DNA of 64,000 nt from Chamaelirium japonicum. Lineage: Eukaryota > Streptophyta > Magnoliopsida > Liliales > Melanthiaceae. The stretch covers positions 65,845,094 through 65,909,093 of the forward strand of contig OX393551.1 in assembly GCA_947650365.1 (NCBI GenBank). The letters are read 5' to 3'. The notes under the pieces are model-generated. The model was given only the letters and a program-made list of their open reading frames with translations, searched no databases and had not been told where the DNA came from. Below are positions 4,132-48,885 of the stretch, piece after piece. The position numbers were made by a program, and so were the translations under genes. Position 1 is the stretch's first letter. Every line of letters starts with the position of its first letter.

Positions 4132-5289
4132 ATGCTTCGTCTTCTCCGCAGAATTCCCCACCTCTGCAATTCAAAACCGCAGCTGAATCCAACCCATATC
4201 CGCTTCCTCTACAGCTCGACCCCCAAAGCGATCCCCAAATCACCAGACCTCCCGAACCCAACATCCCTCGCGGTCACCTACCTCATCAGCTCCTGCGGCC
4301 TCTCCATCGAGGCAGCCCTCTCAGCCGCCAAAAGCCTTCACCTCAAATCCCTGGAGAACCCCAATGCCGTCCTCGCCCTCCTCAAAGACCGCGGCTTCAA
4401 CAAAACCCAGATCGCAAATCTCATCACCAAGCACCCAAAAGTCCTCTCAGCCGATCCGGAGAGGACCATCAAGCCCAAATTGGAGTTCTTCCTCGGCATT
4501 GGCTTCTCCGCCCCAGGCCTCGCGAAGCTCGTCTCTGCGGACCACAACCTCCTTCTCATCAGCCTGGAGAAAAAGCTCATACCCAACTTCGAGCGCCTCA
4601 AGTCCCTGCTCGGCACCCGCAAAGCAGCCGTTGCTGCGCTTAGCTGCTCGTCCCGGTTGCTCCGGTACAACCTCGAAAAGATGCTACTCCCTAATATGAA
4701 GATCTTGCGAGACCACGGGGTCCCTGGACTGAAAATTGTGAAGCTAGCAACCTTGTATCCCAGAGTACTGATGCAGAGGTCCGATCGTTTTGGAAAGACG
4801 GTCGAGGTGCTTAAGGAACTGGGTTTCAATCCATCGACGACGATGTTTGTTCTCGGGATCAATGCAATGTCTGGGTTGTCCTTGTCGATGTGGGAGCGGA
4901 AACTGGAGGTCTATAGGAGCCTGGGGTGGTCGGAAAAAGAGACCCTTTTAGCATTCAGGAAGCATCCCTATTGCATGCTGGCCTCGGAGGGGAAGATCAG
5001 GCAAGGGATGGATTTTTTCGTTAACAAGCTGCACTGGGAGCCGTCCTTTCTGTCGGCATGGCCGAAGCTTCTGACACTTAGTTTCGAGAAGAGGATCATT
5101 CCGAGGTGTTCAGTTCTGAGAGTTTTGTCGTCGAGGCGATTGGTTAGGAGGAACTTGGGCGTGCACACGGTGTTGCTGATTTCTGAAAAGGACTTCTTGG
5201 ACAAGTATGTAATGAAATATAGGGAGGAAGCTCCTGAAGTCCTTGAGGCTTACCAAGATAAGATCAATTCACAAGGTTCTCAGCTTTAA
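4132..5289 (+). CDS. mTERF-family protein (gene A), predicted organelle-targeted
   Basis: An intact single exon encodes 385 residues. The family binds organellar nucleic acids through an alpha-superhelix of ~30-residue mTERF motifs and acts in mitochondrial or plastid transcription, splicing or translation. The N-terminal ~35 residues are Arg/Ser-rich with no acidic residue before position 39 and contain RFLYSS, as expected of a transit peptide. From about residue 50 the helical repeats run to about 370, with family-typical words such as VLALLKDRGF, LITKHPKVL, LYPRVL, AFRKHPYCM and LTLSFEKRIIPRC. The start is chosen because MLRLLRR is shared with genes B, D and E. GC content falls from the 5' to the 3' half. 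It is the only plus-strand member and the most divergent of the five here, and a fold-back MITE sits just upstream. Target organelle and RNA are unknown. Confidence 0.9.
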   Translation: MLRLLRRIPHLCNSKPQLNPTHIRFLYSSTPKAIPKSPDLPNPTSLAVTYLISSCGLSIEAALSAAKSLHLKSLENPNAVLALLKDRGFNKTQIANLITKHPKVLSADPERTIKPKLEFFLGIGFSAPGLAKLVSADHNLLLISLEKKLIPNFERLKSLLGTRKAAVAALSCSSRLLRYNLEKMLLPNMKILRDHGVPGLKIVKLATLYPRVLMQRSDRFGKTVEVLKELGFNPSTTMFVLGINAMSGLSLSMWERKLEVYRSLGWSEKETLLAFRKHPYCMLASEGKIRQGMDFFVNKLHWEPSFLSAWPKLLTLSFEKRIIPRCSVLRVLSSRRLVRRNLGVHTVLLISEKDFLDKYVMKYREEAPEVLEAYQDKINSQGSQL

Positions 5290-6668
5290 AGTTTTTACAA
5301 TATTCTATTCGGTTTTCAATATTCTGTGTTGTTACAATTTACCAAGATAAAATCATACAAGGCTTACCAAGTATGATTTCTGAAAAGGACTTCTCTGCGG
5401 TTTTCAATATTCTGTGTTGTTTCAACTTTCAATCTAGGGTGAGATTCTAACTTGAAAACCTACAAACTAGTCAAATTGCACATTTTTCTCCTGAATTCCT
5501 GAAAACCTTATAGTTGCATATGGATCCTCCAAAACATTTTAAGGTTCACATATTCACCCCTCCATTACTACTCATCAATAGAAAGTGAATTAACACGGTG
5601 AGATTCTAACCTGAGGTGCAAATGACCATTTTTCCCGTGGTCAAAGGGTGACTTACCACCTGCATCGGCTAATTTCAGTTGTTTTCAATGAAAGTACCAT
5701 ATCCTTGACTCTAGTTGATCCGGTCTCCCCTGATACTCGTTCAACCCACCATGCTCGTCTGGTAGGTCCGACAACCATCCTCACTTACACCTAACAGTCA
5801 AGAGGGGAATATTCCAAGTAAATTCACCCTTTTAAGATGGTAGCTAACCAGGGGGAAATATGCACAACTTTATATGTTTCAAAGGGTCGATATCCAAACT
5901 TTAGCCACTCCAGTTTCTGTTGTTTGTTTTTTAACGGATATGCGGTTGGTTTAGTCCATTCTTATCTGGATCTCTTGTTCTAAGCTTCAGCCTAAACCCA
6001 TTTACCCTACCATGAAACTTGTTTGTTCTTTCTCTCGGTATTCATCAATTACTTGGGAGGACAGATTGTTTAGCCATTTCATGTCATGCGGAGTCAGCAT
6101 TTCTGTTGGTTGCATTTGGTTGCCAAGAAGTTGGTTATGTTGATTTGCTGTTTGTGAGCGATTGTTTCCTGCAGAATTATATGTTCTTGCGAGTTTATGT
6201 AATTGAAGAAGATTTGAACAGTAGCATCTATTCTATCTATTTATTAATTCTGTGTTAGTTGAGCTATTTTTGAAACCAAAGGTTAAGCAAGTTAAAGAAG
6301 AATGTGATGTTCAATTTGGTTCTGTTCTTCTAGGGCAAGTATTCATACAGTTCCTAACCAGCTAATGCTTTATACTTGATATTATGGTTAGAGGTTATGG
6401 TGTTGTGTCTGTTCTATGATTTGTTATGACCAGTCCCATCTTAGGAACCCATGATGGAAAAAAATGTTCAATATGATGATATCCGTCATGTTGAGATCAT
6501 GACCTGATTAATTACCAACTTCCTCGATGAAATGTAGCTAGAAAACTGATAGAATTAGATGGTCTCTCTGTAACAGATGCTCAGGAAGTTGTGGGAGTTC
6601 TGCCTGTGCTTTGCAATCTCGAACTTGTTGCATGCATAGATACCAAATTCGTGAATTATTTGGCCGGT
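5290..6668. other. Intergenic sequence downstream of mTERF gene A
   Basis: About 5300-5425 contains a short duplicated phrase (ttttcaatattctgtgttg twice) and a scrap matching the 3' end of the gene A coding region (gatttctgaaaaggacttct at 5372 and in the gene at 5179), so the 3' UTR arose partly by local duplication. The rest shows no recognised gene or element. A short open stretch near 6540-6660 is not assignable. Confidence 0.4.
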
Positions 6669-6690
6669 GGGGGGGGGGGGGGGGGGGGGG
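6669..6690 (+). repeat. Homopolymer G(22)
   Basis: This is an uninterrupted run of 22 G. It could form a G-quadruplex or be a length-uncertain assembly tract. No element boundary was found beside it. Confidence 0.95.
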
Positions 6691-6839
6691 TTCCCATATG
6701 AAACGCGACTTAAAATAGTAAAATACTGCTGGAGTATTAAATGGTAGTCACGATTTATTCTCGAATCATGATGACTGACTTTGTGTTTTTAATAATTTCT
6801 TGAAGGTTAGATGATAGATTGAGTAATTTAATAGATTAA

Positions 6840-14121: not shown

Positions 14122-14306
14122 CTCAGATGCCGATAACAATCAATTAAGCAGGAGGCTTCCGATAAATTAAATTGTATCCGGATGCTTTTTACCAACTTCT
14201 GTGCCCATCTCTCCAAAGGACAAATGATATAGAAGTTAGATGCTGAAAGCAATCAAATAAGCAGAAGACTCTGTACAAACTAAACTGCATCCAATTGCTG
14301 TTTCTG
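14122..14306 (-). repeat. Duplicated 3' end and 3' UTR of mTERF gene B
   Basis: 14122-14192 and 14236-14306 are direct copies (gatgcYgaWaRcaatcaa, then aagcagRaggc/aagcagaagac, then aaactgcatcc/aaattgtatcc). The copy nearer the gene spans its stop codon. The same segment occurs once beside genes C (about 30017-30070) and D (about 34336-34395). Gene B therefore doubled this block, and it also has a longer acidic C-terminal tail. Confidence 0.7.
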
Positions 14307-15470
14307 ATCTATTTCCTCTTCGCTCATCTCGAAGGCTTCCAAACCCATCTTTCCAGTGATAGCATCCACCACTTCAGGAGCCTCGCCCTGGTGCTTGATC
14401 ACATAGTTCTTCAGGAATTCCTTCTCTCCCAGCACCAAGTGATGGGCGCACACATCGCCCTTCGCCAAGCCCTTGGATGCCAGGATTCTCATCACCAGAC
14501 ACCTTGGAACAATCCTCTTTTCGAAGCTTAGGGACAGAACCGACGGATTCATCGATACATAGGCCGGGCTCCATTGGAGTTTTTCCGCAAAAAACTCCAT
14601 GTTGTTCCTCACCTTCTCAACCGACGCAGACATACAATAGGGGTGCTTTGTGAATGCCCGGAGGACTTCCTCCTGCGACCATCCCAAGCTTCTATAGTTC
14701 TCCAATTTCTTCTTCCACGTTGGTTTAGGCAATCTGGAGAGCACCCCGAGTGCATGGACAAACATGGAAGATGATGGGCTGATACCCATCTCCTGGATCA
14801 CAGCAAAGGACACCTCAAAGCCATCAGATTTCTCTATCAAAGACCTGGGATGGGTTCCGACCAACTTTGCGATTATGGAATCGGGCATGCCATGGTTCCG
14901 CAATATTTCGATCTTGGGCAGCAATACTTTCGGGAGATCAGAGAGAAGCAACAAGGGGCAGTTCTTGACGGCGGCGACGACATTCTCGTTGGTGTGGAGT
15001 ATGGCTCTGAGCAGGTCAAGGTTGGGGATCATTCGGTTCTCCAAGCTCCAGAGGAGGAAGACGGAGTTGGAGGAGACGAGCCGGGCGAGGTCGGGGTCGG
15101 AGAGCCCGAGGCCGCGGTAGAAGTCCAGTTTGGGCTTGAGGGTCTTGTGGGGATCGGCAAGGAGGAGATGGGGTCGGGCGGCGACGAGGCGGGCGAGCTG
15201 GGGTTTGGTGAAGCCGTAGTCTCTGAGGAGGGCGAGGACGGAGTGGGGTTTCTTGGTGGTCTTCAGATGGATCTTGCCGGCGACGGCGGCGGCGACCTCG
15301 GAGGAGAGGCCGCATGAGTTCTTGAGGAAATAGAGGGTGAGGGACGGATCGGTGGCGGTGGGCGAGGTGTGGAGGAGGGTCCTGAATGATGGGCGGTGGA
15401 GGAAACGGGGAGCAGTGGGTGCGGCTGTTGAGGCTGTGATCGTGAGATTACGGCCGAGAAGGCGAAGCAT
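14280..15470 (-). CDS. mTERF-family protein (gene B), predicted organelle-targeted
   Basis: An intact single exon encodes 396 residues from the preferred start. An upstream in-frame ATG at 15500 would add 10 residues, but MLRLLGRNLTIT aligns with the starts of A, D and E. The N-terminus (about 1-40) is rich in Arg, Thr and Ala and ends near RPSFRTLLHTS, a likely transit peptide. The mTERF superhelix covers about residues 55-370, with SVLALLRDYGFTKPQLARLV, LLADPHKTLKPKLDFYRGLG, LLLLSDLPKVLLPKIEILRNHG, AFTKHPYCM and LSLSFEKRIVPRC. The acidic tail ending EEIDQKQQLDAV is longer than in C and D. It probably acts on organellar RNA or DNA. It is closest to gene D over the N-terminal half. A Gypsy relic begins about 230 bp upstream of its start. 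Confidence 0.9.
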   Translation of the reverse strand: MLRLLGRNLTITASTAAPTAPRFLHRPSFRTLLHTSPTATDPSLTLYFLKNSCGLSSEVAAAVAGKIHLKTTKKPHSVLALLRDYGFTKPQLARLVAARPHLLLADPHKTLKPKLDFYRGLGLSDPDLARLVSSNSVFLLWSLENRMIPNLDLLRAILHTNENVVAAVKNCPLLLLSDLPKVLLPKIEILRNHGMPDSIIAKLVGTHPRSLIEKSDGFEVSFAVIQEMGISPSSSMFVHALGVLSRLPKPTWKKKLENYRSLGWSQEEVLRAFTKHPYCMSASVEKVRNNMEFFAEKLQWSPAYVSMNPSVLSLSFEKRIVPRCLVMRILASKGLAKGDVCAHHLVLGEKEFLKNYVIKHQGEAPEVVDAITGKMGLEAFEMSEEEIDQKQQLDAV

Positions 15471-17220: not shown

Positions 17221-18082
17221 TGTTGGTCAGTGGAGCTGATTAGAGTCAGCAGCGGTACAAAGACCGAGGAGCAACCTGCAGAGGTCTCCCTCATGGTCTG
17301 GAGGAGGGGATTTTGTTGGGTGGTCCAGTCCATGATGGAGCCCAACCATCCCCAACCATTTATGATGGAGCCCAACCAAAAACCTAGCCGGAGTACGGAT
17401 GATGATCGAGCCATATTCGGCACTGTTTTCAGATACCATGGAGTCATTGTTTGGCCCAGTCTTCTACATGGAATCTGTAGAGAGATAGACGACGATTCCA
17501 ACGCTTTTGGAATCGTCGAATTCCACCAAAAATTGGAGATTCTACGAAGAGCCAAAGTAGCCTCCGGTTCCCATTTTGTTGGGACGGTTGCAATGTGAAC
17601 AGGGCTTGGAGTTCAAGTAGGTACGGTTGGATATTGTTATAGTGGGCCATTGGATCTAGGGTCTTGATCCAATGGCCAATATTTCTCCTGTAAGCTTTAT
17701 TGCATTGGTGGGTTTTTGGGGAGGCGGCGGTAGCGCGTGAAAGAAAAAAACTGAGAGAGGTTGAGAAAGAAGAAGAGATCTATGATCTCTATTGTATGTT
17801 GAATTTCTCCATTGATAATCAGAATCCTGTGGCGGCCGTGGACGTAGCCCATTCTTGGGTGAACCACGTAAACTCTCATGTCCCTTATTCTTTGTGATTT
17901 CTTCTGTGATTGCTGATTGTGTTTGTGGTAGATAGATCGATTATTATTATTATTATTCTTGCCTTCGTTCTGTCGGTTATTGTTCGTAAGATCCTTTCCG
18001 CTAGGAGGAGGGTAACATAAGGCATCAGAGAGACAGTTCGAGGCGTCTCTTTGATCCTCAAGTTGGGCCCTCAATCTTAACA
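17221..18082 (+). repeat. 5' LTR of the Copia element at 17221-22461
   Basis: This 862-bp LTR is followed two bases later by the tRNA-Met-type primer-binding site. It is near-identical to 21600-22461. Confidence 0.93.
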
Positions 18083-21000
18083 ACTGGTATCAGAGCCTTC
18101 ATCCGTTGAAGGATAATTTCACGATCTGTTCGTGAACTGTACGAATCGAATCTTAGAACAGAGTTTTTGATTCAAGTGGGAGCGATGGCCGCAGAAGAAG
18201 CAAGATTCAAGATTGAGAAGTTTGACGGACAGAACTTTGCATTCTGGAAGTTGCAGATAACTGATTATCTGTATTCGAAAGATCTATACATACCGCTGGG
18301 CGGCATGAAGAAAAAGGGGGACATGAGCGATGATGATTGGGAAATTCTAGACCGGAAGGCACTAAGTGCGATCCGGCTCTCTCTGACGTCGTCAGTATTG
18401 TTCAATGTTGCTGATGAGACGACGACCGAGGGACTCCTAGGGGCTCTGTCAAAGCTCTATGGGAAGCCCTCTGCATCGAATAAAGTATTTCTGATGAAGA
18501 AACTCTTTAACCTAAAGCTGAAGAATGGATCCTCTATTGCGTCCTACACAAATGACTTCAAAAATCTCATCACACAGCTGAAGTTGGTGGATGTTACCTT
18601 TGGAGATGAACTGCAGGCACTATTGATTTTGTCAGGCCTGCCAGATAGTTGGGACAGCCTTGTGATTGCAGTCAGTAACTCCACTAGTTCAGAGAAACTG
18701 AAATATGGAGATGTGGTGAGCACGATGCTTAGCGAAGAGTCCAGACGTAAGACCTCTGGGCAACATGAGTCATCAGGAAGTGCCCTGAATGTTGAGGGTC
18801 GGGGAAGAAGTCAGGAGAAAAGGGGGCGCCATAATCATCAGTATCGATCCAAGTCAAGGAAGAGTGGATCGAGGCCGCCACCAAATAGAGGCAGTTTCAA
18901 ATGCTACAATTGTGGGAAGCCCGGACACATTGCAAGGAACTGCAGGGCTCCTAAACGAGCTCAAAGCGATAGTGGAAATCAAGAGGCAAACCCTAGGGCA
19001 AATGTTGTTCAAGCAGACCCTGATGCTAATGCTCTAATTTGTGCCCTTGATGGAAGACTGGAGGCGTGGATTGTTGGCTCCGGTGCGTCGTTCCATGCGA
19101 CGTGGAATACCGATGTGCTAAGTAACTACCGGAAAGGGGACTATGGCAAAGTGTATTTGGGCGATGATGAACCTTGCAAAATCATCGGCATTGGAGATGT
19201 GAAGCTCATCCTACCCAATGGGACAGAGCTAAAGTTGGAGAAGGTTAGGCATGTGCCAAGCCTACGACGCAGCTTGATCTCAGTTGGCCAATTATCTGAG
19301 TTTGGTCTGAAGACCACCTTTACCAAAGATGCTTGGAAGGTGAGAAGCAATGCATTGGTCATAGCGCATGGGAAGAAAGAAGGGACGTTGTATGTGGCAT
19401 CTGGCTCCATGCATAGCACAATAGCAGTAGCAACAACAACAGTGAGTCCCGGCACTTGGCACTACAGGTTAGGACATATGAGTATGAAGGGAATGCAGAT
19501 CATGCACTCAAAGGGGAAGTTGCCAGGATTGAAGACGACAGAGATTGAGTTCTGTGAAGATTGTGTTCTAGGAAAGCAGCACAAGGTCGCCTTCAGGACA
19601 GATGGAAGACAGAAGAAGTCTCATAAGCTGGACCTGGTTCACACAGACGTTTGAGGGCCAGCACCTGTTCCATCGATAGGTAACTCTCGTTACTTTGTTA
19701 CTTTCATCGATGATGCATCTAGAAAACTCTGGTTATACTTTATGAAAAATAAATCGGATGTGTTTCAAGTCTTCAAGAATTGGAAAGCTACTGTAGAACT
19801 TGAAACAGGTACTAAGCTGAAGTGCCTGAGATCTGACAACGGTGGAGAGTACTGCAGTGCAGAGTTTGAGAACTACTGCACCGAGAATGGTATCAGACGT
19901 CAGAAGACCGTTCCCGGCACACCTCAGCAGAACGGTGTGGCTGAGAGAGCCAACCGAACATTCCTAGAGAGAGCTAGGAGTATGAGACTACACTCAGGTT
20001 TACCAACACAGTTTTGGGCAGAGGCAGTCAACACTGCGGCTTATCTGATAAACCGCGGACCTTCAGTTGCATTGGACTTCGATATCCCTGAAGAAGCTTG
20101 GACAAGAAAAGAAGTTAATCTGTCACACTTGAAGATTTTTGGGTGTGTGGCATATGTGATGACAGATCCATCAGAAAGGTCCAAGCTCGATGCCAAGTCC
20201 AGGAAGTGCACTTTCATTGGCTACGGAGGTGATGAGTTTGGGTATCGCTTCTACGATCATGAGAAACTGAAGATCGTGAGAAGCCGTGATGTGGTGTTCA
20301 ATGAGAATGTGATGTACAAGGACCGAAACAAGGCAGTCTAAGAAAATCAGCCAGGACAAGAGCACTTAATGTGTAAATTGAGAAAGAGTCTATACGGACT
20401 GAAGCAAGCCCCCAGACAATGGTATAAAAAGTTCGATGCTTTCATGGAGGAGAATAACTTTGGGAAGTGTCACTCTGATCACTGTTGTTACTTTCAGAAG
20501 TTTAATAATTCTTATATTATTTTACTTCTATATGTTGATGATATGTTAATCGCAGGATCGGACATGAGAAGAATTATTGATTTGAAGAAGAAGCTCTCGA
20601 GTAGGTTCGAGATGAAGGATCTGGGCGCTGCAAACCAAATATTGGGAATGAAAATTAACCGTGACAGATCGACAGGGACTTTGAGGCTATCATAGAAAGA
20701 GTACGTCGAGAAGATAGTAAAAAGGTTTAACATGGAGAATGCGAAGCCAGTGACTACCCCGTCATCCAGTCATTTCAAGTTATCAAAGATGAAGGCAGCG
20801 AGGACCATGAAGGAGAAGGAAGAAATGTCCAAAGTGCCATATGCATCAGCTGTGGGAAGCTTGATGTATGCGATGGTCTGCACTCGACCAGACATCACAC
20901 ATGCAGTTGGCATGGTAAGCCGGTACATGAGCAACCCTGGCAAGAAGCATTGGAATGCAGTGAAATGGATATTCAGATATTTGAGAGGCACCTCAGGGCA

Positions 21001-21599
21001 TGCTCTAGTTTATGGTAGAGCAGATGTGAAGCTATGTGGATATGTGGATTCAGATCTAGCAGGAGATCTGGACAGCAGGAAGAGTACCACAGGATATGCT
21101 TTCACACTAGGCACTGGAGCAGTCAGCTGGATTTCAAGACTACAGAAGGTCGTTGCGTTGTCGACAACAGAAGCAGAGTATGTGGCCATGACAGAAGCAT
21201 GCAAGGAAATGATGTGGCTGAAAACACTCCTCGAAGAAATTGGAAAGGATCAGAAAGGTTGTACGTTATACAGTGACAGCCAGAGTGCGATTCACTTGGC
21301 TAAGAATTCTGCGTTTCACTCACGAACAAAGCACATTCAGATTCAATATCACTTCGTCCGTGAAATGCTGGAACAAGAGGAGCTGACCTTGGAGAAAATT
21401 CACACCAGCATGAATTCCGCAGACATGTTCACGAAGATCGTGCCAGCCGACAAGGTGAGGTTGTGTTCAACCTCAATCGGCCTTTGCAAATGATCAAGGA
21501 AGGCTGCCGCCGCAGTGAAGACCGCAAGGATTGAAAACTGAGATCAACGAAAGGAAGAATAAACCTCTCTGAGTGGAATCATCTCCAAGTGGTAGATTT

Positions 21600-22461
21600 T
21601 GTTGGTCAGTGGAGCTGATTAGAGTCAGCAGCGGTACAAAGACCGAGGAGCAACCTGCAGAGGTCTCCCTCATGGTCTGGAGGAGGGGATTTTGTTGGGT
21701 GGTCCAGTCCATGATGGAGCCCAACCATCCCCAATCATTTATGATGGAGCCCAACCAAGAACCTAGCCGGAGTACGGATGATGATCGAGCCATATTCGGC
21801 ACTGTTTTCAGATACCATGGAATCATTGTTTGGCCCAGTCTTCTACATGGAATCTGTAGAGAGATAGACGACGATTCCAACGCTTTTGGAATCGTCGAAT
21901 TCCACCAAAAATTGGAGATTCTACGAAGAGCCGAAGTAGCCTCCGGTTCCCATTTTGTTGGGACGGTTGCAATGTGAACAGGGCTTGGAGTTCAAGTAGG
22001 TACGGTTGGATATTGTTATAGTGGGCCATTGGATCTAGGGTCTTGATCCAATGGCCAATATTTCTTCTGTAAGCTTTATTGCATTGGTGGGTTTTTGGGG
22101 AGGCGGCGGTAGCGCGTGAAAGAAAAAAACTGAGAGAGGTTGAGAAAGAAGAAGAGATCTATGATCTCTATTGTATGTTGAATTTCTCCATTGATAATCA
22201 GAATCCTGCGGCGGCCGTGGACGTAGCCCATTCTTCGGTGAACCACGTAAACTCTCGTGTCCCTTATTCTCTGTGATTTCTTCTGTGATTGATGATTGTG
22301 TTTGTGGTAGATAGATCGATTATTATTATTATTATTCTTGCCTTCGTTCTGTCGGTTATTGTTCGTAAGATCCTTTCCGCTAGGAGGAGGGTAACATAAG
22401 GCATCAGAGAGATAGTTCGAGGCGTCTCTTTGATCCTCAAGTTGGGCCCTCAATCTCAACA
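21600..22461 (+). repeat. 3' LTR of the Copia element at 17221-22461
   Basis: This 862-bp LTR ends in aaca directly before the TSD gccac. Confidence 0.93.
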
Positions 22462-27900: not shown

Positions 27901-28018
27901 GAAGACGCGTTTTAAAACCATGCGCCGCTATGGATTTCGTAAGAACTCCGTAGTTAAGCGTGCTCGGGCGAGAGTCGTACCAGGATGGGTGATCCCCTGG
28001 GAAGTTCTCGTGCAAGCA
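27901..28018 (+). other. 5S rRNA-like domain in Cassandra 3' LTR
   Basis: It contains aagaactccgtagttaagcg, tgctcgggcgag, gtaccaggatgggtga and ctgggaagttctcg, close to plant 5S rRNA and better preserved than the 5' LTR copy. Confidence 0.88.
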
Positions 28019-30082: not shown

Positions 30083-31198
30083 TCAGATCGTCTCCAAGAC
30101 TTCCAACCCCATATTGCCATTGATAGCATCCACCACTTGAGGAATCTCACCCTGGTACTTGATCACAAATATCTTCAGGAAGTTCTTTTCCGCCCGAACC
30201 AAATGATGGGCGGCGACATCTCCCGTCACCATGCCCTTGGACGCCAGGATTCTCAACACCAGGCACCTCGGAACAATCCTCTTTCCGAAGCTGAGGGACA
30301 GCACCACCGGATTCATGGATATGTAGCCCGGTGCCCATCCGAGCTTGCTGGCAAAGAACTCCATGTTCCTCCTCGCCTTCTCGATCGAAACCGTCATGCA
30401 GTCGGGGTGCTTCGCGAATGCCCGAAGGACTTCCTCCTGTGACCATCCTAAGCTCCTATAGTTCTCCAATTTCTTCTCCCACATTGGTTTAGACAATCTG
30501 GAGAACACCCCGAGTGCACGGGCAAACAAGGACGACGATGGCCGTATACCCATCTCCTTGACAGCAGCGAAGGTCTCCTCGAACCTATTGGATCTCTCCA
30601 TCAAAGACCTGGGATAGTGTCTGACCAATTTCTCCATCACGGAATCGGGCATGCCATGGTTCAGAAGGATTTCGATCTTGGGCAGCAATACTTTCGGGAG
30701 ATCAGAGAGAAGCAACAAGGGTGATCCCTTGACGGCGGCGACGACATTCTCGTTGGTGTGGAGGATGGTTCTTAGCAGGTCGAGGTTGGGGATCATTCGG
30801 TTCTCCAAGCTCAAGAGGAGGAAGACGGAGCTGGATGAGACGAGTTGGGCGAGGTCGGGGTCGGAGAGCCCGAGGCCGCGGTAGAAGTCCAGTTTGGGCT
30901 GGAGGGTCCTGTGGGGATCGGAGAGGAGGAGACGGGGTCGGGCGGCGACGAGGCGAGCGAGTTGGGGTTTGGTAAAGCCGTAGTCCCTGAGAAGGGCGAG
31001 GACGGAGTGGGGCTTCTTGGTGGTCTTCAGATGGATCTTGGCGGCGGCGGCGGCGGCGGAGGAGGAGGAGAGCCCGCATGAGCTCTGGAGGAAATCGAGG
31101 GTGAGGGATGGATCCTTATCGGCGATCGTGAGATTCCGGCAGAAATGGGGGGAAGTGGTGGTTGGAATCGTGAGATTCCGCCAGAAACGTCTAAGCAT
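30083..31198 (-). CDS. mTERF-family protein (gene C), predicted organelle-targeted
   Basis: An intact single exon encodes 371 residues from MLRRFWRNLTI. An in-frame ATG at 31321 would add 41 residues, but the internal Met aligns with the other members. The presequence is Arg/Thr-rich and repeats the RNLTI word twice (about residues 7-11 and 21-25), suggesting a local duplication in the leader. mTERF motifs span about 35-350, with SVLALLRDYGFTKPQLARLV, LLSDPHRTLQPKLDFYRGLG, AFAKHPDCMTVS and LSLSFGKRIVPRC. The C-terminal half and the 3' flank are nearly identical to gene D. The family acts in organellar gene expression, and the specific target cannot be inferred. Downstream it abuts the minisatellite end of the transposon nest. 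Confidence 0.9.
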   Translation of the reverse strand: MLRRFWRNLTIPTTTSPHFCRNLTIADKDPSLTLDFLQSSCGLSSSSAAAAAAKIHLKTTKKPHSVLALLRDYGFTKPQLARLVAARPRLLLSDPHRTLQPKLDFYRGLGLSDPDLAQLVSSSSVFLLLSLENRMIPNLDLLRTILHTNENVVAAVKGSPLLLLSDLPKVLLPKIEILLNHGMPDSVMEKLVRHYPRSLMERSNRFEETFAAVKEMGIRPSSSLFARALGVFSRLSKPMWEKKLENYRSLGWSQEEVLRAFAKHPDCMTVSIEKARRNMEFFASKLGWAPGYISMNPVVLSLSFGKRIVPRCLVLRILASKGMVTGDVAAHHLVRAEKNFLKIFVIKYQGEIPQVVDAINGNMGLEVLETI

Positions 31199-34392: not shown

Positions 34393-35526
34393 TTACTGAT
34401 CCAAACCCACCTTGCCATTGATAGCATCCACCACTTCAGGAGCCTCACCCTGGTACTTGATCACATATCTCTTCAGGAAGTTCTTTTCCGCCCGAACCAA
34501 ATGATGGGCGGCGACATCTCCCGTCACCAAGCCCTTGGACGCCAGGATTCTCAACACCAGGCACCTCGGAACAATCCTCTTTCCGAAGCTGAGGGACAGC
34601 ACCACCGGATTCATGGATACGTATCCCGGCGCCCATCGGAGCTTGCTGGCAAAGAACTCCATGTTCTTCCTCGCCTTCTCGATCGAAACCGTCATGCAGT
34701 CGGGGTGCTTCGCGAATGCCCGGAGGACTTCCTCCTGTGACCATCCTAAGCTCCTATAGTTCTCCAATTTCTTCTCCCACATTGGTTTAGACAATTTGGA
34801 GAACACCCCGAGTGCACGGGCAAACAAGGACGACGATGGCCGTATACCCATCTCCTTGATCTCAGCTATGTTCTCCTCGAACCTATTGGATCTCTCCATC
34901 AAAGACCTGGGATAGGCCCTGACCAATTTCAGGGTCACGGAATCGGGCATGCCATGGTTCCGAAGGATTTCGATCTTGGGCAGCAATACCTTCGGGAGAT
35001 CAGAGAGAAGCAACAAGGGCGATCGCTTGACGGCGCTGATGACATTCTCGTCGGTGTGGAGTATGGCTCTGAGCAGGTCGAGGTTGGGGACCATTCTCTT
35101 CTCCAAGCTCCGGTGGAGGAAGACGGAGTTGGAGGAGACGAGGCCGGCGAGGTCGGGGTCGGAGAGCCCGAGGCCGCGGTAGAAGTCCAGTTTGGGCTTG
35201 AGGGTCTTGAGGGGATCGGCGAGGAGGATCTGAGGTCGGGCGGCGACGAGGCGGGCGAGGTGGGGTTTGGTGAATCCGTAGTCTCGGAGGAGGGCGAGGA
35301 CGGAGTGGGGGTTCTTGGTGGTCTTCAGATGGATCTTGTGGGCGGCGGAGGCGGCGGCCTCGGAGGAGAGGCCGCATGAGTTCTTGAGGAAATAGAGGGT
35401 GAGGGATGGATCGTTGGGGGTGGTCAAGGTGTGGAGGAGAGCTTTGGATGATGGGGGCTGGAGGAAGCGGGGAGCAGTGGGTGGTGAGACTGTGATCGTG
35501 AGGTTCCGACGGAGGAGGCGAAGCAT
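34393..35526 (-). CDS. mTERF-family protein (gene D), predicted organelle-targeted, B/C mosaic
   Basis: An intact single exon encodes 377 residues from MLRLLRRNLTITVS; an in-frame ATG six codons upstream is less likely. The Arg/Ser/Thr-rich leader to about residue 40 looks like a transit peptide, followed by mTERF motifs to about 360. Up to about residue 205 it sides with gene B (LYFLKNSCGLSSE, LLADP, KTLKPKLDF, SNSVFL, LLRAILHT, EILRNHG). After that it sides with gene C (RSLMERSNRFEE, EMGIRPSSSLFARALGVFS, KPMWEKKLENY, LSFGKRIVPRC), as does the 3' flank. That pattern indicates gene conversion or unequal crossing-over. It is shorter at the C-terminus (ending GLDQ) than B or C. The organellar role is inferred from the family. 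Confidence 0.9.
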   Translation of the reverse strand: MLRLLRRNLTITVSPPTAPRFLQPPSSKALLHTLTTPNDPSLTLYFLKNSCGLSSEAAASAAHKIHLKTTKNPHSVLALLRDYGFTKPHLARLVAARPQILLADPLKTLKPKLDFYRGLGLSDPDLAGLVSSNSVFLHRSLEKRMVPNLDLLRAILHTDENVISAVKRSPLLLLSDLPKVLLPKIEILRNHGMPDSVTLKLVRAYPRSLMERSNRFEENIAEIKEMGIRPSSSLFARALGVFSKLSKPMWEKKLENYRSLGWSQEEVLRAFAKHPDCMTVSIEKARKNMEFFASKLRWAPGYVSMNPVVLSLSFGKRIVPRCLVLRILASKGLVTGDVAAHHLVRAEKNFLKRYVIKYQGEAPEVVDAINGKVGLDQ

Positions 35527-37300: not shown

Positions 37301-37572
37301 ACTAGCTTTTCCATATAAAAGTGTTGTTTTTTGGATCCTAGGGATTAAGTAGCTACTCATATTATGAAAATATTATTTTTAATTATAAAATATAATTTTG
37401 TGGATCCATTTATATGACGATCAAAATCCAATAGCCAAGACTTATGAGGCTGTGATGCCAAGATGAATGAGGTATGTTGAGGTGAGTTGTCCAAGGCCAC
37501 CAAGTTAGTCCCACATAGCCTGAAGAGTAGGAGATCCTTAGCTACTTATATAATTTTTCCTCCCAAACATAG

Positions 37573-37690
37573 AAGATGCGTCTTAAAATCGTCCACCGCT
37601 ACATATTTCGTAAGAACTCCGTAGTTAAACATGCTCGGGCGAGAATAGTACTAGGATGGGTGACCCTCTGGGAAGTCCTCGTGCGGGCAC
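37573..37690 (+). other. 5S rRNA-like domain in Cassandra 5' LTR (second element)
   Basis: It contains aagaactccgtagttaaaca, tgctcgggcgag, agtactaggatgggtgacc and gggaagtcctcgtg, with the pol III box A and box C positions recognisable. It is LTR-embedded, not a 5S gene. Confidence 0.88.
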
Positions 37691-37972
37691 AGGCAAAGCG
37701 AACAATATCTTGTGAGTGTTTGGGGCGGATATTACAAAATAGTATCAGAGTCGATTCTTCTCGCAATAGGGGGGTCTAACTCTACACGTGGACGTGTAGA
37801 CCTTAAGGGGGATGGATTGTGACGACCAAGATCAATAGCTAAGAGCCCTGAGGCTGTGATGCCAAAGTGGATGAGGTGTCCAAGGCCACTGAGTTAGTCT
37901 CTCATGGCTTAGAGAGGAGATCATGAGCTACTTATAATTTTTCCTCCCAAATATAGAAGATTTTAAAACATG

Positions 37973-38092
37973 AGGCGTTTTAAAACAGTTTGTCGCTACG
38001 GATTTCGTAAAAACCTCGTAGTTAAGCGTGCTCGGGCGAAAGTAGTACAAGGATGGGTGACCCCTCTGGAAGTTCTCATGCGGGCGCGGGCA
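37973..38092 (+). other. 5S rRNA-like domain in Cassandra 3' LTR (second element)
   Basis: It contains cgtagttaagcgtgctcggg, agtacaaggatgggtgaccc and ggaagttctc. The 5' stem side is altered compared with the other copies. Confidence 0.85.
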
Positions 38093-38136
38093 AAGCGGAC
38101 AATCTTTTGTATGGTTGGGGCGGATGTTACAATTTA

Positions 38137-41376: not shown

Positions 41377-41381
41377 GATGC

Positions 41382-41528
41382 TGTTAGTTATAGTGTATAG
41401 CGTTGAGATACACATACCCGTAGATTACCTGTATAGGATACCCCTTGTCTTTTCTTGTATCATGGATATATATTTGGCCATTGGCCTAATGAGAGCTCTT
41501 GATTCATTTTCCCAAAATCCTTGTATCA
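41382..41528 (+). repeat. 5' LTR of the second Copia element
   Basis: This 147-bp LTR, tgttagttat...ttgtatca, is followed immediately by the primer-binding site. Confidence 0.92.
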
Positions 41529-44500
41529 TGGTATCAGAGCTAACCTCGAGCTCTCCTCCGAGCAACCTCAAGTCCCCCCTTCCGCAAGATCTGAGATCTC
41601 AGCATCTCTCTCCGGCGAGCTCGTCTCTGATTCAGGCCAGACTGATCAGATCTGGTCTCGCGGTTGCTTCTCACCGACCGACTCTGGATCTACACCTTCG
41701 GATCTCTGTATCTGCTCTTCTTCCCGACGAGATCCAAATCTGTATCTGTTTTTCCTTCCAATCGAAGACAGGTTTCAGATCTGATCTCAGCTCCAACTCC
41801 TCCGGCCAAATCTCAGCTCTTCTCCTCCGAAACCGGCTCCAGCTCCAGCTCCTCTCCTTTGGTTTCAGACCTCGAGCTCTCCTCCAGTTTCAGATCCTCC
41901 GGTTTCAGATCCTTCGGTTTCAGATCTGATCTCAGCTCTAGCTCCTCCGACCAGATCATTCAGATCCTCCGATTTCAGATCTGATCTCAGCTCCAACTCC
42001 TCCGGCCAGACACTCCGGTTTTAGATCTGATCCCAGCTCCTCCGGCCAGATACTCCGGTTTTAGATATGATCCCAGCTCCTCCGACCAGATCCTCCGGCC
42101 AGATCTCAGCTCCTCTCCTCCAACGACCTCTGATTGGAGCTCTTCTCTCTCACCGACGAGCAGCCTCCTCTTCGCTCTCTTCTTCAGATCCACCGAGTAA
42201 GCCGCCATGGCTGACTCCTCCTCCGTAGATGCTCCTCCACCCGTGCCACTGCACTCTGAGAGCCTCCCATTCGAGTATGCTCGTGACTTTCTGCTGAGCT
42301 CGACAGACTTCCCTCTCACCTCCTTCGCCGACTGGGAAGCATGGGTAGCCACCGTCCAGACCATGCTTCTCAGACGTGGCCTCCTTGGATTACTCGACGG
42401 CACCACAGCGGCATCGAGTCAGGCTTTCCCCGTCGCCCTTCAAGCGTGGCGCCTTCGTGATGCACGGGTCGCCGCCTACCTTGTCGCTTCGGTTGATCGG
42501 ACGATGCGCGCTGACCTCGCCGCTCTTGGAGCATCTGCAGTCATATGGCGCTCCCTAGTTGAGCGTTTCATAGGGTCTAGCGGCGCCCGTGAGTATGCTC
42601 TTCTCTCTCAGATCCAGTCCGAACAGCAGGGTGATCGTACGATCCAGCAATTCCATGCGCATATGCGTGGTTACTGGCGGAAGCTTTAGTCACTGGTACC
42701 TCTCGTATCTCCCGAGTGGCGTGCCGCCCATCAGGCCTTCTGGGAGCGCCATCAGCTTTACCAGTTCTTGATGGCCCTTCGACCAGAGTTTGGCCCACTC
42801 CCTGGCGCCTTGATCCACCGAGACCCACTTCCACGCTTGGATGCTACCATTGCCGAGTTCGTCGCCAAAGAGACCAGGCTGCATACCATCCCTGGCGCCT
42901 TGATCCACCGAGACCCACTTCCACGCTTGGATGCTACCATTGCCGAGTTCGTCGCCAAAGAGACCAGGCTGCATACCATCATCACCAGGGCTCCTCCGTC
43001 CCCCTCCAGCCACACGGGCGTCCTTGCTGCAGCCCCAGTTGCCTCTTTTACTTCTGCTTCTGGTCGTGATCGGTTTGTATGCACCCACTGCCACAAACCA
43101 GGTCATGTCGTCGCCACATGTTGGAAGCTGCATCCTGAAAAGAGGCAGGGACCCCGAGGACGTGGTCGACCCATTGGCTCTACTGCTGCTGCTGCTACTG
43201 CCCCGTCCTCTCCTCGCACAGTTCCATCATCACCTCGGGGTTCCTTGGACGCTCCTGACACCACTCAGCTCCTTCAGCAGCAACTTGCACAGCTTCAGTT
43301 CCGCTTAGACCAGCAGGCGAGCTTCAGCTCCGCCGAGGCTTCCAGCGCCTCCAGTTCCTCTGCTCACTTACCCACTCTCGATACCTTCGCCACTTGGATT
43401 CTGTACTCTGGAGCCTCCCATCACATGACTTCCAATGCTTCCCTGCTTACCGATTACCGACCGGCACCGCACATCCCGTCGATACATACTGCCGATGGCT
43501 CTTCTTTAGCCATCTCGCAGTGTGGATCGATTACCGCCACTACAGAGCTGAGCGGTTGTCTCTCCTTACCCACAGTGTTGCATGTCCCCCAGCTTCGCAT
43601 GCAGCTCATCTCTATTAGCAGCCTCTGTGACTCTGGCTATGTTGTGACATTTTTCCCTTCTTCTTGTGTTATGCAGGATCCACGTACCGGACGGGTGATT
43701 GGCGCTGGTCGTAGGTCAGGCGGACGCTCCTGACACCACTCAGCTCCTTCAGCAGCAACTTGCACAGCTTCAGTTCCGCTTAGACCAGCAGGCGAGCTTC
43801 AGCTCCGCCGAGGCTTCCAGCGCCTCCAGTTCCTCTGCTCACTTACCCACTCCCGGTACCTTCGCCACTTGGATTCTGTACTCTGGAGCCTCCTATCACA
43901 TGACTTACAATGCTTCCCTGCTTACCGATTGCCGACCGGCACCGCACATCCCGTCGATACATACTGCCGATGGCTCTTCTTTAGCCATCTCGCAGTGTGG
44001 ATCGATTACCGCCACTACAGAGCTGAGCGGTCGTCTCTCCTTACCCACAGTGTTGCATGTCCCCCAGCTTCGCATGCAGCTCATCTCTATTAGCAGCCTC
44101 TGTGACTCTGGCTATGTTGTGATATTTTTCCCTTCTTCTTGTGTTATGCAGGATCCACGTACCGGACGGGTGATTGGCGCTGGTCGTAGGTCAGGCGGGC
44201 TGTACCACCTCGATCATCTCCATCTTCCCCTCATTCCCCCTTCTGGCGTCTGTAGTTTAGCGTCTCCCGATGCCGACTTGTGGCACCGAAGACTCGGCCA
44301 TATTTCTGCGTCTCGACTTAAGATCTTACTCCAAACTGGAGCTCTAGGTCGTTGCTCCTTTTCTTCTTTATGTATATGTACCGGTTGCAAGCTTGCCAAA
44401 GCTACAACCTTACCTTTTCATTTTAATATCTCTCAGAGTTCTGCTTCTTTTGACCTAGTGCACTCCGATATCTGGGGTCCCGCACCTCTTCCTTCGATGT

Positions 44501-47085
44501 GTGGCTATCGCTACTATATTTCTTTCATCGATGACTTCAGCCGATACACTTGGGTCTACCTTCTTCAGAACTGCTCTGAGGTTCCTCAGGTCTACCAGCT
44601 CTTCACCTCGATGGTCCACACACAGTTCGGTTGTCGCATCAAGACCTTTCGATCTGATTGCGCCCTCGAGTACCTCTCCACTGCTATGCGAACACTTCTT
44701 CAGTCCCATGGGACCATATTCCAGCACTCCTGTCCTCACACACACGAGCAAAACGGAGTAGCCGAGAGGAAGCACCGTCATATCCTTGAGACATCGCGTG
44801 CTCTTCTTCTCTCTACTTTCGTTCCACACACTTTCTGGGCTGAGGTTGTCTTGACCTCAGTCAACCTCATCAACATCACCCCTTCGTTTGTTCTCCCGGG
44901 TGGTGTTTCTCCCCACGAGCGTCTTTTCTTTTCCCCTCCTGACTATAGTCTGCTTCGTACCTTCGGGTACACCTGTTTTGTTCTCCTCCCGCCCCATGAG
45001 CGCACAAAGCTGTCCGAACGTTCAGTTAAATGCATCCTCCTAGGAATCAGCGCCGAGCACAAGGGTTATCGTTGCTATGATCCCTTGACTCGTCGCCTTC
45101 GCATCTCTCGACACGTCTCCTTCGTCGAGGATGCCCCTTACTACCCTCTGCAGCTCAGGACCTCACCTTCTTGGAGACTCCCCCCACTCTGTCTCCGACT
45201 CTCGAGCCTCTTCTATCACCCCTTTCGCTTAGCTCTACTTCTCCCCCTGTTTCTAGTGATTCTTACACGGAGTCTTCCTCTGTCCCCTCCTCTCCTCCGT
45301 CACCGATTGCTTCCGTAGGTCTTCCTCATACTCCCGATGTCTATGGTACCCCGCCTGCTACGCCCAGTCCGACGTCGCCGGTCGTGGATCCTCGCCCGCC
45401 GCCTCGCTACCCTCAGTGCGAGCACCACCCACTTAATTGCTTCAGCTTTAGCTCTGGCCCACCTGACCATTTTGGTTTTCCCACGGTCACCTCCTACTCG
45501 CCTCAGTTTACAGCTTTTCTTGCAGCCCTTCACACAGACCAGGAGCCTCGGACGTTCCGGGAGGCCGTCCAGTCCCCTCAGTGTCGACATGCTATGAGAG
45601 AGGAATTTCAGGCATTTGAGCAGACTCAGACTTGGGATATCGTCCCCCTTCCTGTTGGTATTGAGCCTGTTAGTTGCCGGTGGGTCTACAAGGTCAAGCG
45701 GCGACCTGATGGTTCCATCGATCGGCACAAGGCTCGGTTGGTAGCCCGTGGCTTCACTCAGGCATACGGAATAGACTACGAGGAGACTTTCGCATCTGTA
45801 GCTCAGATGACCTCCGTTCGTACACTCATGGCAGTTGCAGCAGTCCGTCGATGGCCTCTTCTCCAGATGGACGTGAAGAATGTCTTTCTCCATGGTGATC
45901 TTTCAGAGGTCGTCTATATACAGCCACCCCCTGGTTTGCATACTCCTCCCCAGCATGTTTGTCGCCTCCGTCGAGCTATCTACGGGCTCAGGCAAGTCTC
46001 TCGAGCTTGGTTTGAGTGTTTCCGACGAGCCATCACTGAGATCGGCTATATTGAGAGCTCACAGGACCACTCACTTTTTGTGCAGTCATCTCCTCAGGGC
46101 AGGGCGATTCTCCTATTATATGTCGACGACATGATCATCACAGGTGATGACTCCGCTGCCATCACTTTCCTTCAGTAGCATCTTCAGCGCCGGTTCCAGA
46201 TGAAAGATTTAGGTCCTCTTCGCTACTTCCTTAGGCTAGAGATCGCCCACAGTGAGCAAGGGATTCTGCTATACCAGTAGAAGTACACAGCTGACATTCT
46301 CAACCGAGTTGCACTCTCCGATGATCGCTCTGCTATCACCCCTCTCGAGCTTCACGTGAAGCTTCGTCCCACCGATGGTGAGCCTCTCTCAGATCCTACT
46401 CGGTACCGACAGATCGTTGGTCAATTGGTTTACCTCTGCATCACCAAGCCCGACATTGCTCATGTCGTTAGCATCGTCAACCAGTTTGTCGAAGCCCCTC
46501 GCTCTGCTCATTACGCTGCCCTATTTCGGCTTCTCCGTTATCTCCGAGGCACTATCACTCGGTCGCTCTTCCTATCATCGACTTCTCCTCTGGTCCTACG
46601 TGCCTACTCGGATGTTGACTGGGCTGGTGATCCAACCACTCGTCGATCGACTACCGGCTATTGCTTATTTCTTGGAGATTCTCTCATCTCATGGCGCAGT
46701 AAGAAGCAGAGCGTTGTCTCTCTCTCTCTCTCCAGTACTGAAGCAGAGTTTCGAGCTATGGCCTCTACTACCAAAGAGATCATTCACTTGCGACGTCTTC
46801 TTGATGATCTAGGGGTTGAGATCTCTGGACCTACAGCCCTTCACTGTGACAACTGGAGTGCAATACAGATTGTCACCAATCCGGTATTCCACGAGAGGAC
46901 GAAGCACATTGAATTCGATTGCTACTACTCTCGCCAGGAGTATGAGGCCGGGACCATCTCTCTCCCCTTTGTTTCCTCTGGAGATCAGATTGCTGACTTC
47001 TTCACGAAGTCACACCCTGCTCCACGGTTTCAGTTTCTACTTAGCAAACTCATGGTGCATGATCCACCTTGAGTTTGAGGGGGGC

Positions 47086-47232
47086 TGTTAGTTATAGTGT
47101 ATAGCGTTGAGATACACATACCCATAGATTACCTGTATAGGATACCCCTTGTCTTTTCTTGTATCATGGATATATATTTGGCCATTGGCCTAATGAGAGC
47201 TCTTGATTCATTTTCCCAAAATCCATGTATCA
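47086..47232 (+). repeat. 3' LTR of the second Copia element
   Basis: This 147-bp LTR is preceded by a G-rich polypurine tract and followed by the TSD gatgc. Confidence 0.92.
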
Positions 47233-47237
47233 GATGC

Positions 47238-47739
47238 TAGTAGTGAAATAGGCCTTAACAACTACCTTGAGTCTTGACATACACAAGATTCATGATATAG
47301 ATGTGCTCGAATCATCAGGAAACTTTGCAAGGATTTTGAAGCAATTCGACGAGCTGCCCCTAGCCGATTATGCTGCGGATTGTAGATAAGGCGCCCGAAG
47401 GTTTCCAGCATGGTGCCCGCGGGCTAGTAACTGGGTGCACACTAGCTAACTGGATTTGTTCTTGTTGTAGATGGGGGAAAATCTATCATGTAACTCATTG
47501 GGTGTGGGTATATTAACTTAAAAGAGAGCACTGTAAGTGAAGTTTTTCACATTGAAGGCAAAGATCAAGCTAGCAAAACAAAAAACAAATCAAATTTTCA
47601 TTACACCGCGAACTGGGGTCAGTAGGATTATCACTGGAATGGAGCACAACAAATGGAAAAATCTTCAAAAGATTTAATGATTTCAAAATCATATGCTGGA
47701 ATCGATCAAATGTGCAAAGGGCTGCCAAAAGCCTGCAAA
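47238..47739. other. Intergenic sequence between Copia 3' TSD and mTERF gene E
   Basis: This is the continuation of the sequence interrupted by the Copia element, followed by the 3' flank of gene E. No other gene was seen. Confidence 0.4.
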
Positions 47740-48885
47740 TTAAATGGTATCCAAAACACTAACCCTATCAAATTCTTCGTTCATCTTGCCCGTGATGGCG
47801 TCGAGCACTTCAGGAACCTTGGCCTGATGCTTGATCACATACTTTTCTGAGAATTCCTCCCCCCCCATGAACAAGTGCTGAGCCCCGACATTGCCCTTGA
47901 ACAAGCCCTCCGATGCCAGGGCTCTCAAGACCAAGCACCTCGGAAGAATCCTCTTCCGAAAGCTGAGCGAGAGGAGCGATGGATTTGCCGATACATAGGC
48001 CGGTCCCCATTTGAGCTCTTTGGCGAAGAACTCCATGTTCTTCCTGACCTTCTCGTCGGAGGCTGACATGCAGTAGGGATGCCTCGCGAACCCTCGAAGG
48101 GCTTCGTCTCTCGACCACCCCAGTCTCCTATAGTTCTCCAATTTCCTCTCCCAGATTGGCTCAGGCATTTTGGAGAGCACCCCGAGGGCGTGGGCGAACA
48201 TCATCGACGAAGGGCAGATGCCCGTCTCCTTGACCATCGTGAAGGCTTTCTCGAAGTGATTGGATCGCTCGATCAAGCACCTGGGATGGTTGGTGATGAC
48301 TTTCAGGATCACGGATTCCCCGTGGTTCCGTAACGTTTCGATCTTGGGCAGCAAGTGCTTCCGGGGATCGCCGAGGAGCAAGGTAGGCGAGCTTTTGAGG
48401 GCGGCGATGACGTTCTTGGTGGTGCGTAGCACGGCTCTGAGCAGATCGAAGTTGGGGATCAGGCGGTTCTTCACGCTCCACGTCAAGAAGTCGGGGGTGT
48501 TGGAGAGGAGCCGGGTGACGTCGGGGCCGGGGAGGCCCAAGCTGCGGTAGAACTCCAGTTTGGGCTTGAGGGTCTTGTGGGGATCGGCGAGGAGGAGCCG
48601 CGGGCGGCGGGTGGCCATGCGGGCGATCTGGGCGGCGGTGAAGCCGTAGTCCCTGAGGAGGGCGAGGACGGAGTGGGGTTTCTTGGTGGTTTTGAACCGG
48701 ATCTTCTGGGATGCGGTTGCGGCGGCTTCGGAGGAGAGGCCGCATGAGTTCTTGAGGAAGTAGAAGGCTAGGGATGGATCGTCCGCGGCGGCCGAGGTGT
48801 GGAGGAGGGACGGGCGTCGAAGGAAACGGAGATCGGGGATCGCTAGGATTCTTGTTGTTATGCTCCTGCGGAGAAGGCGAAGCAT
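47740..48885 (-). CDS. mTERF-family protein (gene E), predicted organelle-targeted
   Basis: An intact single exon encodes 381 residues from MLRLLRRSITTRIL. An in-frame ATG at 48990 would add 35 residues, but the chosen Met aligns with the paralogues. The Arg-rich leader (RRSITTRIL...RFLRRPSLLHTSA) over about residues 1-33 fits a mitochondrial presequence. mTERF motifs run from about 45 to 355, with SVLALLRDYGFTAAQIARMA, LLADPHKTLKPKLEFYRSLG, NHPRCLIERS, FARHPYCMSAS and LSLSFRKRILPRC. It is more diverged from B, C and D than they are from each other (for example TRRPRLLL and KSSPTLLLGDPRKHLLPKI), so it left the cluster's common ancestor earlier. The likely function is organellar RNA or DNA binding; the target is unknown. 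Confidence 0.9.
   Translation of the reverse strand: MLRLLRRSITTRILAIPDLRFLRRPSLLHTSAAADDPSLAFYFLKNSCGLSSEAAATASQKIRFKTTKKPHSVLALLRDYGFTAAQIARMATRRPRLLLADPHKTLKPKLEFYRSLGLPGPDVTRLLSNTPDFLTWSVKNRLIPNFDLLRAVLRTTKNVIAALKSSPTLLLGDPRKHLLPKIETLRNHGESVILKVITNHPRCLIERSNHFEKAFTMVKETGICPSSMMFAHALGVLSKMPEPIWERKLENYRRLGWSRDEALRGFARHPYCMSASDEKVRKNMEFFAKELKWGPAYVSANPSLLSLSFRKRILPRCLVLRALASEGLFKGNVGAQHLFMGGEEFSEKYVIKHQAKVPEVLDAITGKMNEEFDRVSVLDTI

Follow-up and report, generated by a model that had tools for sequence, protein, structure and literature searches.

The question raised by this locus in Chamaelirium japonicum is what a tight group of intact mTERF genes does and why it persists among transposons. 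We analyzed a stretch of 64,000 nucleotides (the window) for which the original prediction was five full-length, single-exon mTERF genes, A on the plus strand and B-E on the minus strand. This prediction was confirmed (Table 1). All five genes have ATG-to-stop frames and match the Pfam mTERF family (PF02536), with E values of 7.7e-31 to 5.4e-35 and scores of 107.6-121.3 bits against a curated cut-off of 23.1; no other Pfam family matched them at E <= 0.001. The whole mTERF domain lies inside one open frame in each of the five, and intron-free coding was judged from sequence. For C and E, alignment indicates that internal ATGs at 31198 and 48885 are the likely start codons, the second of which agrees with the cluster end predicted originally.

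Table 1. Genes and transposable elements of the cluster (positions in the window unless a contig is named)
Feature	Position	Strand	Remarks
Intact mTERF copy A'	C3:65838097-65839242		outside window, 10 kb before A; 90% identical to A
Gene A, single-exon mTERF	4132..5289	+	385 codons; partner A' beyond window
Gene B, single-exon mTERF	14280..15470	-	396 codons; copy C6a (95% aa identity) on contig C6
Copia-type element between B and C	17221..22461	+	terminal repeats 17221-18082 / 21600-22461, 850/862 identical
Gene C, single-exon mTERF	30083..31198	-	371 codons from internal ATG; diverged leader; open frame 30083-31315, 410 codons ATG-to-stop
Gene D, single-exon mTERF	34393..35526	-	377 codons; 3' half near C
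Copia-type element between D and E	41380..47232	+	149-bp terminal direct repeats, 147/149 identical
Gene E, single-exon mTERF	47740..48885	-	381 codons from internal ATG; open frame 47740-48990, 416 codons ATG-to-stop

An AlphaFold2 model of D, the only protein modelled, was all-helical, with a mean pLDDT of 77.3 (five models, 77.3 to 48.3). Its best matches in the PDB were human MTERF3 and MTERF1 (E 3e-6 to 1e-4), at 16-18% identity, and the repeat prolines of MTERF1 align with the plant ones. Judging from this one protein, the family is predicted to form an all-helical solenoid related to MTERF1/3. As judged by amino-acid composition alone, the leaders are putatively organelle-type: in A, B and D the first 38-40 positions are free of acidic residues and the first 35 include five or six Arg/Lys, and the first acidic residue occurs at position 27 in C and 18 in E.

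Including A', six genes lie within 55,882 bp, compared with at least 95 PF02536 matches in the whole 1.519-Gb genome, and the clustering is therefore not due to chance. TTTAGGG repeats are present as well, and two published oil-palm microsatellite primers, a forward and a reverse one from different pairs, had no exact match, in line with a source other than oil palm. Both A' and C6a lie outside the stretch on which the original prediction was based. Further groups of paralogues were found on contigs C3, C12, C10 and C1, and 30 intact frames of this lineage-wide expansion were taken for analysis; groups at C2:105.97 and C4:31/39 were set aside. The genes had also been described as intact amid decayed neighbors. 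This holds for transposons, two Copia-type elements being present, but not for mTERF relics: tblastn searches with seven proteins (E <= 1e-3) of the window and approximately 49 kb of flanking DNA (including 5 kb of N) detected intact genes only.

The mTERF lineage represented by the seven-gene set is under purifying selection (omega 0.33; omega = 1 rejected, 2dlnL 159). The old branches and E, which is both the most diverged and the most constrained gene among B-E, had omega values of 0.11-0.32, whereas the tips leading to A, A', B, C and D had values of 0.63-0.95, none distinguishable from 1. In this pattern the old branches are constrained and the young ones relaxed or diversifying. The predicted selection thus stands for the lineage; for the young copies these tip values are compatible with a dN/dS near 1, which had been named in advance as part of the evidence against it. 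In A and A', coding DNA was better kept than the adjacent 3' flank (65 mismatches and no indels in 1146 nt, compared with 139 mismatches and 9 indels in 748 nt; p 2e-4 for indels), but the coding DNA of C and D was not (85/1023 compared with 12/198). Under neutral substitution, frame survival had a probability of 0.007 for E, 0.09 for C and 0.23-0.77 for the others, so that intact frames alone are improbable under neutrality only for E. Positive selection inside the window cluster was rejected as an explanation, as every comparison of models M1a and M2a was non-significant (p 0.73 for seven genes, 1 without D and 0.105 for B-E with C6a). Among other groups, M2a gave p 0.43 for C3:27 with C12, p 1 for C1:90.9 and a significant result for the four sequences of C1:90.7 with C9 (p 2e-4; 1e-4 and 9e-4 with gap-free columns).

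The cluster had also been considered rapidly duplicating. Low dS values for A/A' (0.095), C/D (0.134) and B/C6a (0.042) agree with this view, but those of A or A' against B-E (0.91-1.44) represent an old split. A maximum chi-square test pointed to D as a chimera of B and C. However, the 5' half is a star that allows all three topologies, and we replaced a simple chimera with a mosaic history of B, C and D. Together, the sequences indicate that the copies arose locally at different times and that B, C and D exchanged sequence. Retroposition of B-E was considered, given that homology begins 24-60 nt 5' of the ATG, and rejected, since flanks may be unalignable at such distances. Upstream homology of A and A' extends further than in the B-E copies.

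Copy C6a is bracketed by 426-bp inverted arms (89%), and its flanks recur elsewhere without the gene. A related copy of this element contained a SWIM domain over the cut-off and a FAR1 match below it; target-site duplications are unreadable in the microsatellite ends around C6a. These features suggest that a MULE-like element carried a copy of a B-type gene to another chromosome.

Across the wider family, the position that seems to change fastest in each repeat is the residue following the conserved proline (P+1). It was the most variable repeat offset in the clade, with a joint omega of 2.3; it was found by a scan of 35 offsets, for which the p value of 0.0012 allows. Pooled counts included 24 of 29 aligned proteins and the joint omega 21 of 29, with identical or near-identical and lone diverged rows omitted. 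P+1 omega was above 1 in three groups; the value for the C10 trio, 2.72, was not different from 1 (p 0.32). In the B-E group of the window, P+1 reached 1.0 compared with 0.26 for the rest, and P-2 was slightly higher at 1.18. In the alignment with MTERF1, F243 corresponds to P+1, R162 to P-2 and F322 to P+4, and among these three offsets only P+1 was significantly above 1 (P-2, 1.23, p 0.37; P+4, 0.72, p 0.19). Broken copies, inspected by eye, were inconsistent in their P+1 excess (0/5, 0/6 and 2/3).

Intron-free, clustered plant mTERFs are already known, and the present cluster matches them in kind. Maize group IX is described as intron-free, predicted mitochondrial, monocot-specific and partly tandem (PMC3981765); as far as described features go, it shares intron-free coding and clustered paralogues with our genes. 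The cereal RFL-mTERF clade (wheat, PMC7759465; name from PMC10226603) is reported to be expanded and clustered, and its evolution has been likened to that of RFL-PPR genes. Here, too, the likeness is one of described features, expansion and clustering, and the present cluster differs in having no mapped restorer locus. How RFL-mTERFs contribute to fertility restoration is said not to have been elucidated (PMC10226603). Linked mTERF genes are reported at the restorer loci Rfm3 of barley (two genes; PMC7154926) and Rfp of rye (four; PMC8035072). A resemblance to such cereal loci had been predicted and is real in kind, but the barley locus was misnamed: the protein associated with Rfm1 is a PPR protein of the PLS-DYW type, and the mTERF-linked locus is Rfm3 (PMC7154926, PMC8571214). 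Similar tandem clustering is found on Arabidopsis chromosome 1, with nine MTERF genes reported in 70 kb (PMC3471360). Maize and Arabidopsis clades are described as separate (PMC3981765), which makes independent expansion likely.

We consider it probable that A-E, together with A', make up six linked copies of a plant mTERF lineage that lacks introns, is predicted to be mitochondrial and is of the maize group IX/cereal RFL-mTERF kind. Each protein would be a solenoid which, once inside mitochondria, binds a specific stretch of mitochondrial DNA or RNA and may serve there as a block or else in processing or stabilization. Changes in mitochondrial targets would decide which new copies persist and which disappear, and adaptation would proceed by altering a few residues of the nucleic-acid face, chiefly P+1; fertility restoration could be one outcome of such turnover. 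This reading is supported by the family match, the D model, the clade tree, the lineage-wide omega and the preservation of A/A' coding DNA, as well as by the B/C/D mosaic, the repeated flanks and inverted arms around C6a, and the variability of P+1 and its alignment with F243. Against it are the young tips, indistinguishable from neutral, the C/D flank comparison, the absence of gain from M2a in the window cluster and two of three other groups, the early acidic residues of C and E, the window P+1 value, which is not above 1 and is slightly exceeded by P-2, and the inconsistent broken copies.

A more specific proposal, which we put forward tentatively and hold to be somewhat doubtful, is that clustered single-exon plant mTERFs form a modular recognition surface in which positive selection acts on P+1 as a specificity position, similar to the coding positions of PPR proteins. 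Duplication, sequence exchange and single substitutions at P+1 might then give clusters of this sort new binding specificities, in a conflict with mitochondrial transcripts that themselves change. In the mTERF papers examined we met no rule for target recognition by the repeats. Should the differences between recent paralogues fall mainly on a single position per repeat, one that aligns with a residue mutated in MTERF1-DNA structures, P+1 swaps between near-identical natural paralogues would make target choice testable, and the window offers such a set in its constrained E and young members.

Alternatively, these could be ordinary housekeeping mTERFs of organelle transcription, intron splicing or RNA stability, with drifting copy number and without a conflict over mitochondrial transcripts. 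Roles in splicing and RNA stability have been reported for plant mTERFs (PMC4005652, PMC10226603), and the strong constraint on E and the old branches would fit; the lineage-wide expansion and the P+1 values above 1 in three groups speak against this account, which we regard as unlikely. Somewhat less likely still is a decay of redundant duplicates, in which function lies with one or two old members and A', C, D and C6a have had too little time to break. Tip omegas, the C/D comparison and neutral frame survival, plausible except for E and perhaps C, are in line with such decay, as is an upstream out-of-frame ATG seen by eye in C6a and absent in B, but it is at odds with the indel-free A/A' coding DNA, the lack of relics found within the cluster and the focusing of change in the wider clade on one repeat position. 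An assembly artefact, in which haplotigs or collapsed repeats would account for some copies, is very improbable: the genes at C1:90.9 do seem to have a second haplotype in contig C250, with 8, 2 and 0 replacement differences, but protein identities of at most 83% among A-E and 90% for A/A' are far beyond such allelic divergence, the flanking DNA is dissimilar, and no N occurs in the window, a 5,000-base N gap lying between A' and A.

PPR frames were also recorded; of 3,481 candidates, the 150 that were scored gave 155 matches. Within this scored set, the closest listed frame on C3 lies 1.7 Mb from the cluster, and six similar 773-codon PPR frames occur on C6, 0.43 Mb from C6a.

As the original prediction held, the window (C3:65845094-65909093) carries five full-length, intron-free mTERF frames, all matching PF02536, with gene A on the plus strand and genes B to E on the minus strand. 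A further intact copy, A', is located outside the window, 10 kb ahead of A, and brings the cluster to six genes in 55,882 bp. A tblastn search of the window plus roughly 49 kb of flanking sequence, including 5 kb of N, detected no mTERF fragments beyond the intact genes when queried with the seven proteins of A, A', B-E and C4a (another clade member); the N run sits between A' and A, and another mTERF copy could be hidden there. Across the genome (1.519 Gb, 3,253 contigs), at least 95 PF02536 matches were found, and searches with D and A singled out one single-exon mTERF clade, sampled as 30 intact frames, seven of window type (A, A', B-E and C6a, a copy of B on contig C6). Contig C250 apparently represents the other haplotype of a C1 segment (C1:90.91-90.97; L029-L031 versus L023-L025). 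One gene pair in this comparison differed by 8 replacement and 1 synonymous changes, one being at a P+1 site (offsets are counted from the conserved proline of each mTERF repeat).

Locations of genes, clade groups and other features, with omega of P+1 sites by group
Feature	Location	Intact frames	P+1 omega	p
A', sixth cluster copy	C3:65838097-65839242
C6a, gene-B copy within a repeated, MULE-like element	L010:3086-4282 (C6, about 71.18 Mb)
C4a, single-exon mTERF clade		1
Clade group	C3:27.3-27.9	6
Clade group	C12:50.7	3
Clade group	C10:38.06-38.10	3
Clade group	C1:90.67-90.97	6
Clade member	C9	1
Clade members	C250	3
P+1 sites	C3:27/C12		3.2	0.007
P+1 sites	C1:90.9		4.5	0.03
P+1 sites	C1:90.7+C9		3.8	3e-4
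P+1 sites	C10 trio		2.7	0.32
P+1 sites	window B-E + C6a		1.0
P+1 sites	A, A', B		0.85
Tandem array of six similar PPR frames, 773 codons each	C6:70611891-70749290
5S rRNA-like sequence	window 27905-28022
Related repeats	window 24098-24671 and 37415-38134
Tandem repeat with a 95-bp unit, about ten copies	window 28716-29704
TMEM230/134-like frame (PF05915)	window 61782-62195 (+)

In a tree of the 30 frames and one outgroup, A paired with A' (84/100), and the pairs B/C6a and C/D each had 100/99 support; B-E and C6a formed a clade (99/100), to which A/A' joined with 72/91. Nei-Gojobori dS was 0.042 for B/C6a, 0.095 for A/A', 0.134 for C/D, 0.253 for B versus D, 0.321 for B versus C, 0.57-0.68 for E versus B, C, D and C6a, and 0.91-1.44 for A or A' versus B-E and C6a. 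Over the 3' half, dS was low between C and D (0.06) and high to B (0.40), and topology tests permitted a C/D grouping only (AU p 7e-4 for alternatives); in the 5' half, all three were near one another (dS 0.09-0.18) and all three groupings were permitted. The leader of C was diverged (dN 0.54-0.59 to B and D). We read the B/C/D pattern, from the sequences, as probable conversion or unequal crossing-over. GC3 in all seven genes was 0.79-0.88 in the 5' part and 0.64-0.76 in the 3' part, and most older pairs had lower dS in the 5' half; GC-biased conversion would give such a combination.

A single omega for the seven genes was 0.33, with omega = 1 rejected (2dlnL 159), and inner branches had values of 0.11-0.32. 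Tip omegas of A (0.63), A' (0.95), B (0.65), C (0.74) and D (0.65) were not different from 1; those of C6a and E were 0.34 and 0.27. The C branch was quicker than background (p 0.005). Coding sequence was far better kept than the 3' flank between A and A' (65/1146 mismatches and 0 indels versus 139/748 and 9 indels), mildly better between B and C6a (29/1191 versus 36/761), and not better between C and D (85/1023 versus 12/198). The earlier argument from intact frames to selection holds for the lineage but is weak for each young copy, because frame survival under neutral substitution alone was improbable for E only (p 0.007; C, 0.09; rest, 0.23-0.77). Among site-class models, M2a gave no significant gain over M1a for window-type genes. 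Significant M2a sites, several at P+1, were observed at C1:90.67-90.73 and C9:9.79 (L032, L028, L033 and L027; four sequences only).

The cluster is real, selected and recombining, and of an already known kind. Arabidopsis has nine tandem MTERF genes within 70 kb (PMC3471360), maize group IX is intron-free, partly tandem and predicted mitochondrial (PMC3981765), and wheat has a clade of clustered mTERFs with RFL-PPR-like evolution (PMC7759465), named RFL-mTERF in PMC10226603, where its role in restoration is said still to be elucidated. Four mTERF genes adjoin rye Rfp (PMC8035072). Barley Rfm1, invoked previously as an mTERF-associated region, is associated with a PPR gene, and Rfm3 is the locus that has two mTERF genes (PMC7154926). 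A restorer role of the window cluster is possible but unsupported.

When residue changes among recent paralogues were counted (five groups, 24/29 proteins), P+1 ranked first among 35 scanned offsets (4.17 per site; p for maximum 0.0012) and stayed there after dropping any single repeat. With synonymous rates taken from the whole gene, the joint omega of six P+1 sites was 2.3 (21/29 proteins; p 8.5e-5 versus 1), a statistic rarely matched by random six-column sets (p 0.0002); the remaining protein had 0.22-0.85 across groups. In the group of window genes B-E plus the C6a copy, P+1 sites had an omega significantly above that elsewhere in the protein (0.26; p 3e-4), which is a loss of constraint and not an excess over 1, and P-2 ranked first in the window (1.18). 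Outside the scan, the C10:38.09/38.10 pair differed at 6/6 P+1 sites (p 0.0074), and three broken copies, by eye, at 0/5, 0/6 and 2/3. A conserved control pair showed 3/9 P+1 differences (by eye) against a body rate of 0.165, and part of the excess may therefore be common to mTERFs in general. Seen in one genome and at a post hoc position, P+1 diversification is promising, not proven; this residue-level signal across the cluster's clade is worth a second look. No report of a variable P+1 position was found among the papers listed by the literature searches, and no priority is claimed.

The AlphaFold2 model of D, built from five sequences, was all helical, with a mean pLDDT of 77.3 and residues 1-39 under 50 (other models' means, 48-65). 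In the PDB it most closely matched human MTERF3 and complexes of MTERF1 with DNA (E values of 3e-6 to 5e-5; TM-scores of 0.47-0.63, normalised to query length), and an A-E profile matched MTERF1 at 2.8e-7. MTERF1 residues F243, R162 and F322 would correspond to P+1, P-2 and P+4, with offsets deduced from chain-sequence differences between mutant PDB entries, whose titles indicate substitution of these residues in DNA-bound structures and nothing further.

C6a aligned with B over 2,066 nt (93.9%), from 51 nt 5' of the ATG to 814 nt 3' of the stop. Both its flanks were high-copy, and the 5' flank had the same end point, within a few bases, in four other copies, all without the gene. Inverted 426-bp arms, 89% alike, bracket C6a, and a C1 copy with matching arms and flank codes for a SWIM domain plus a FAR1 domain that scores below the Pfam cut-off, a combination found in FAR1-type MULE transposases. 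No target-site duplication was readable at the element ends, where a microsatellite lies. By eye, C6a has an out-of-frame upstream ATG absent from B. The PPR array 0.43 Mb from C6a is RFL-like; its nearness to this moved mTERF copy is perhaps by chance.

Several other features were observed in the window. The 5S rRNA-like sequence (41 bits; gathering 38) lies inside short repeats present three times in the cluster, which could be a Cassandra-type TRIM element. The 95-bp tandem repeat lies 0.4 kb downstream of gene C, and the TMEM230/134-like frame was the sole match in the genome search.
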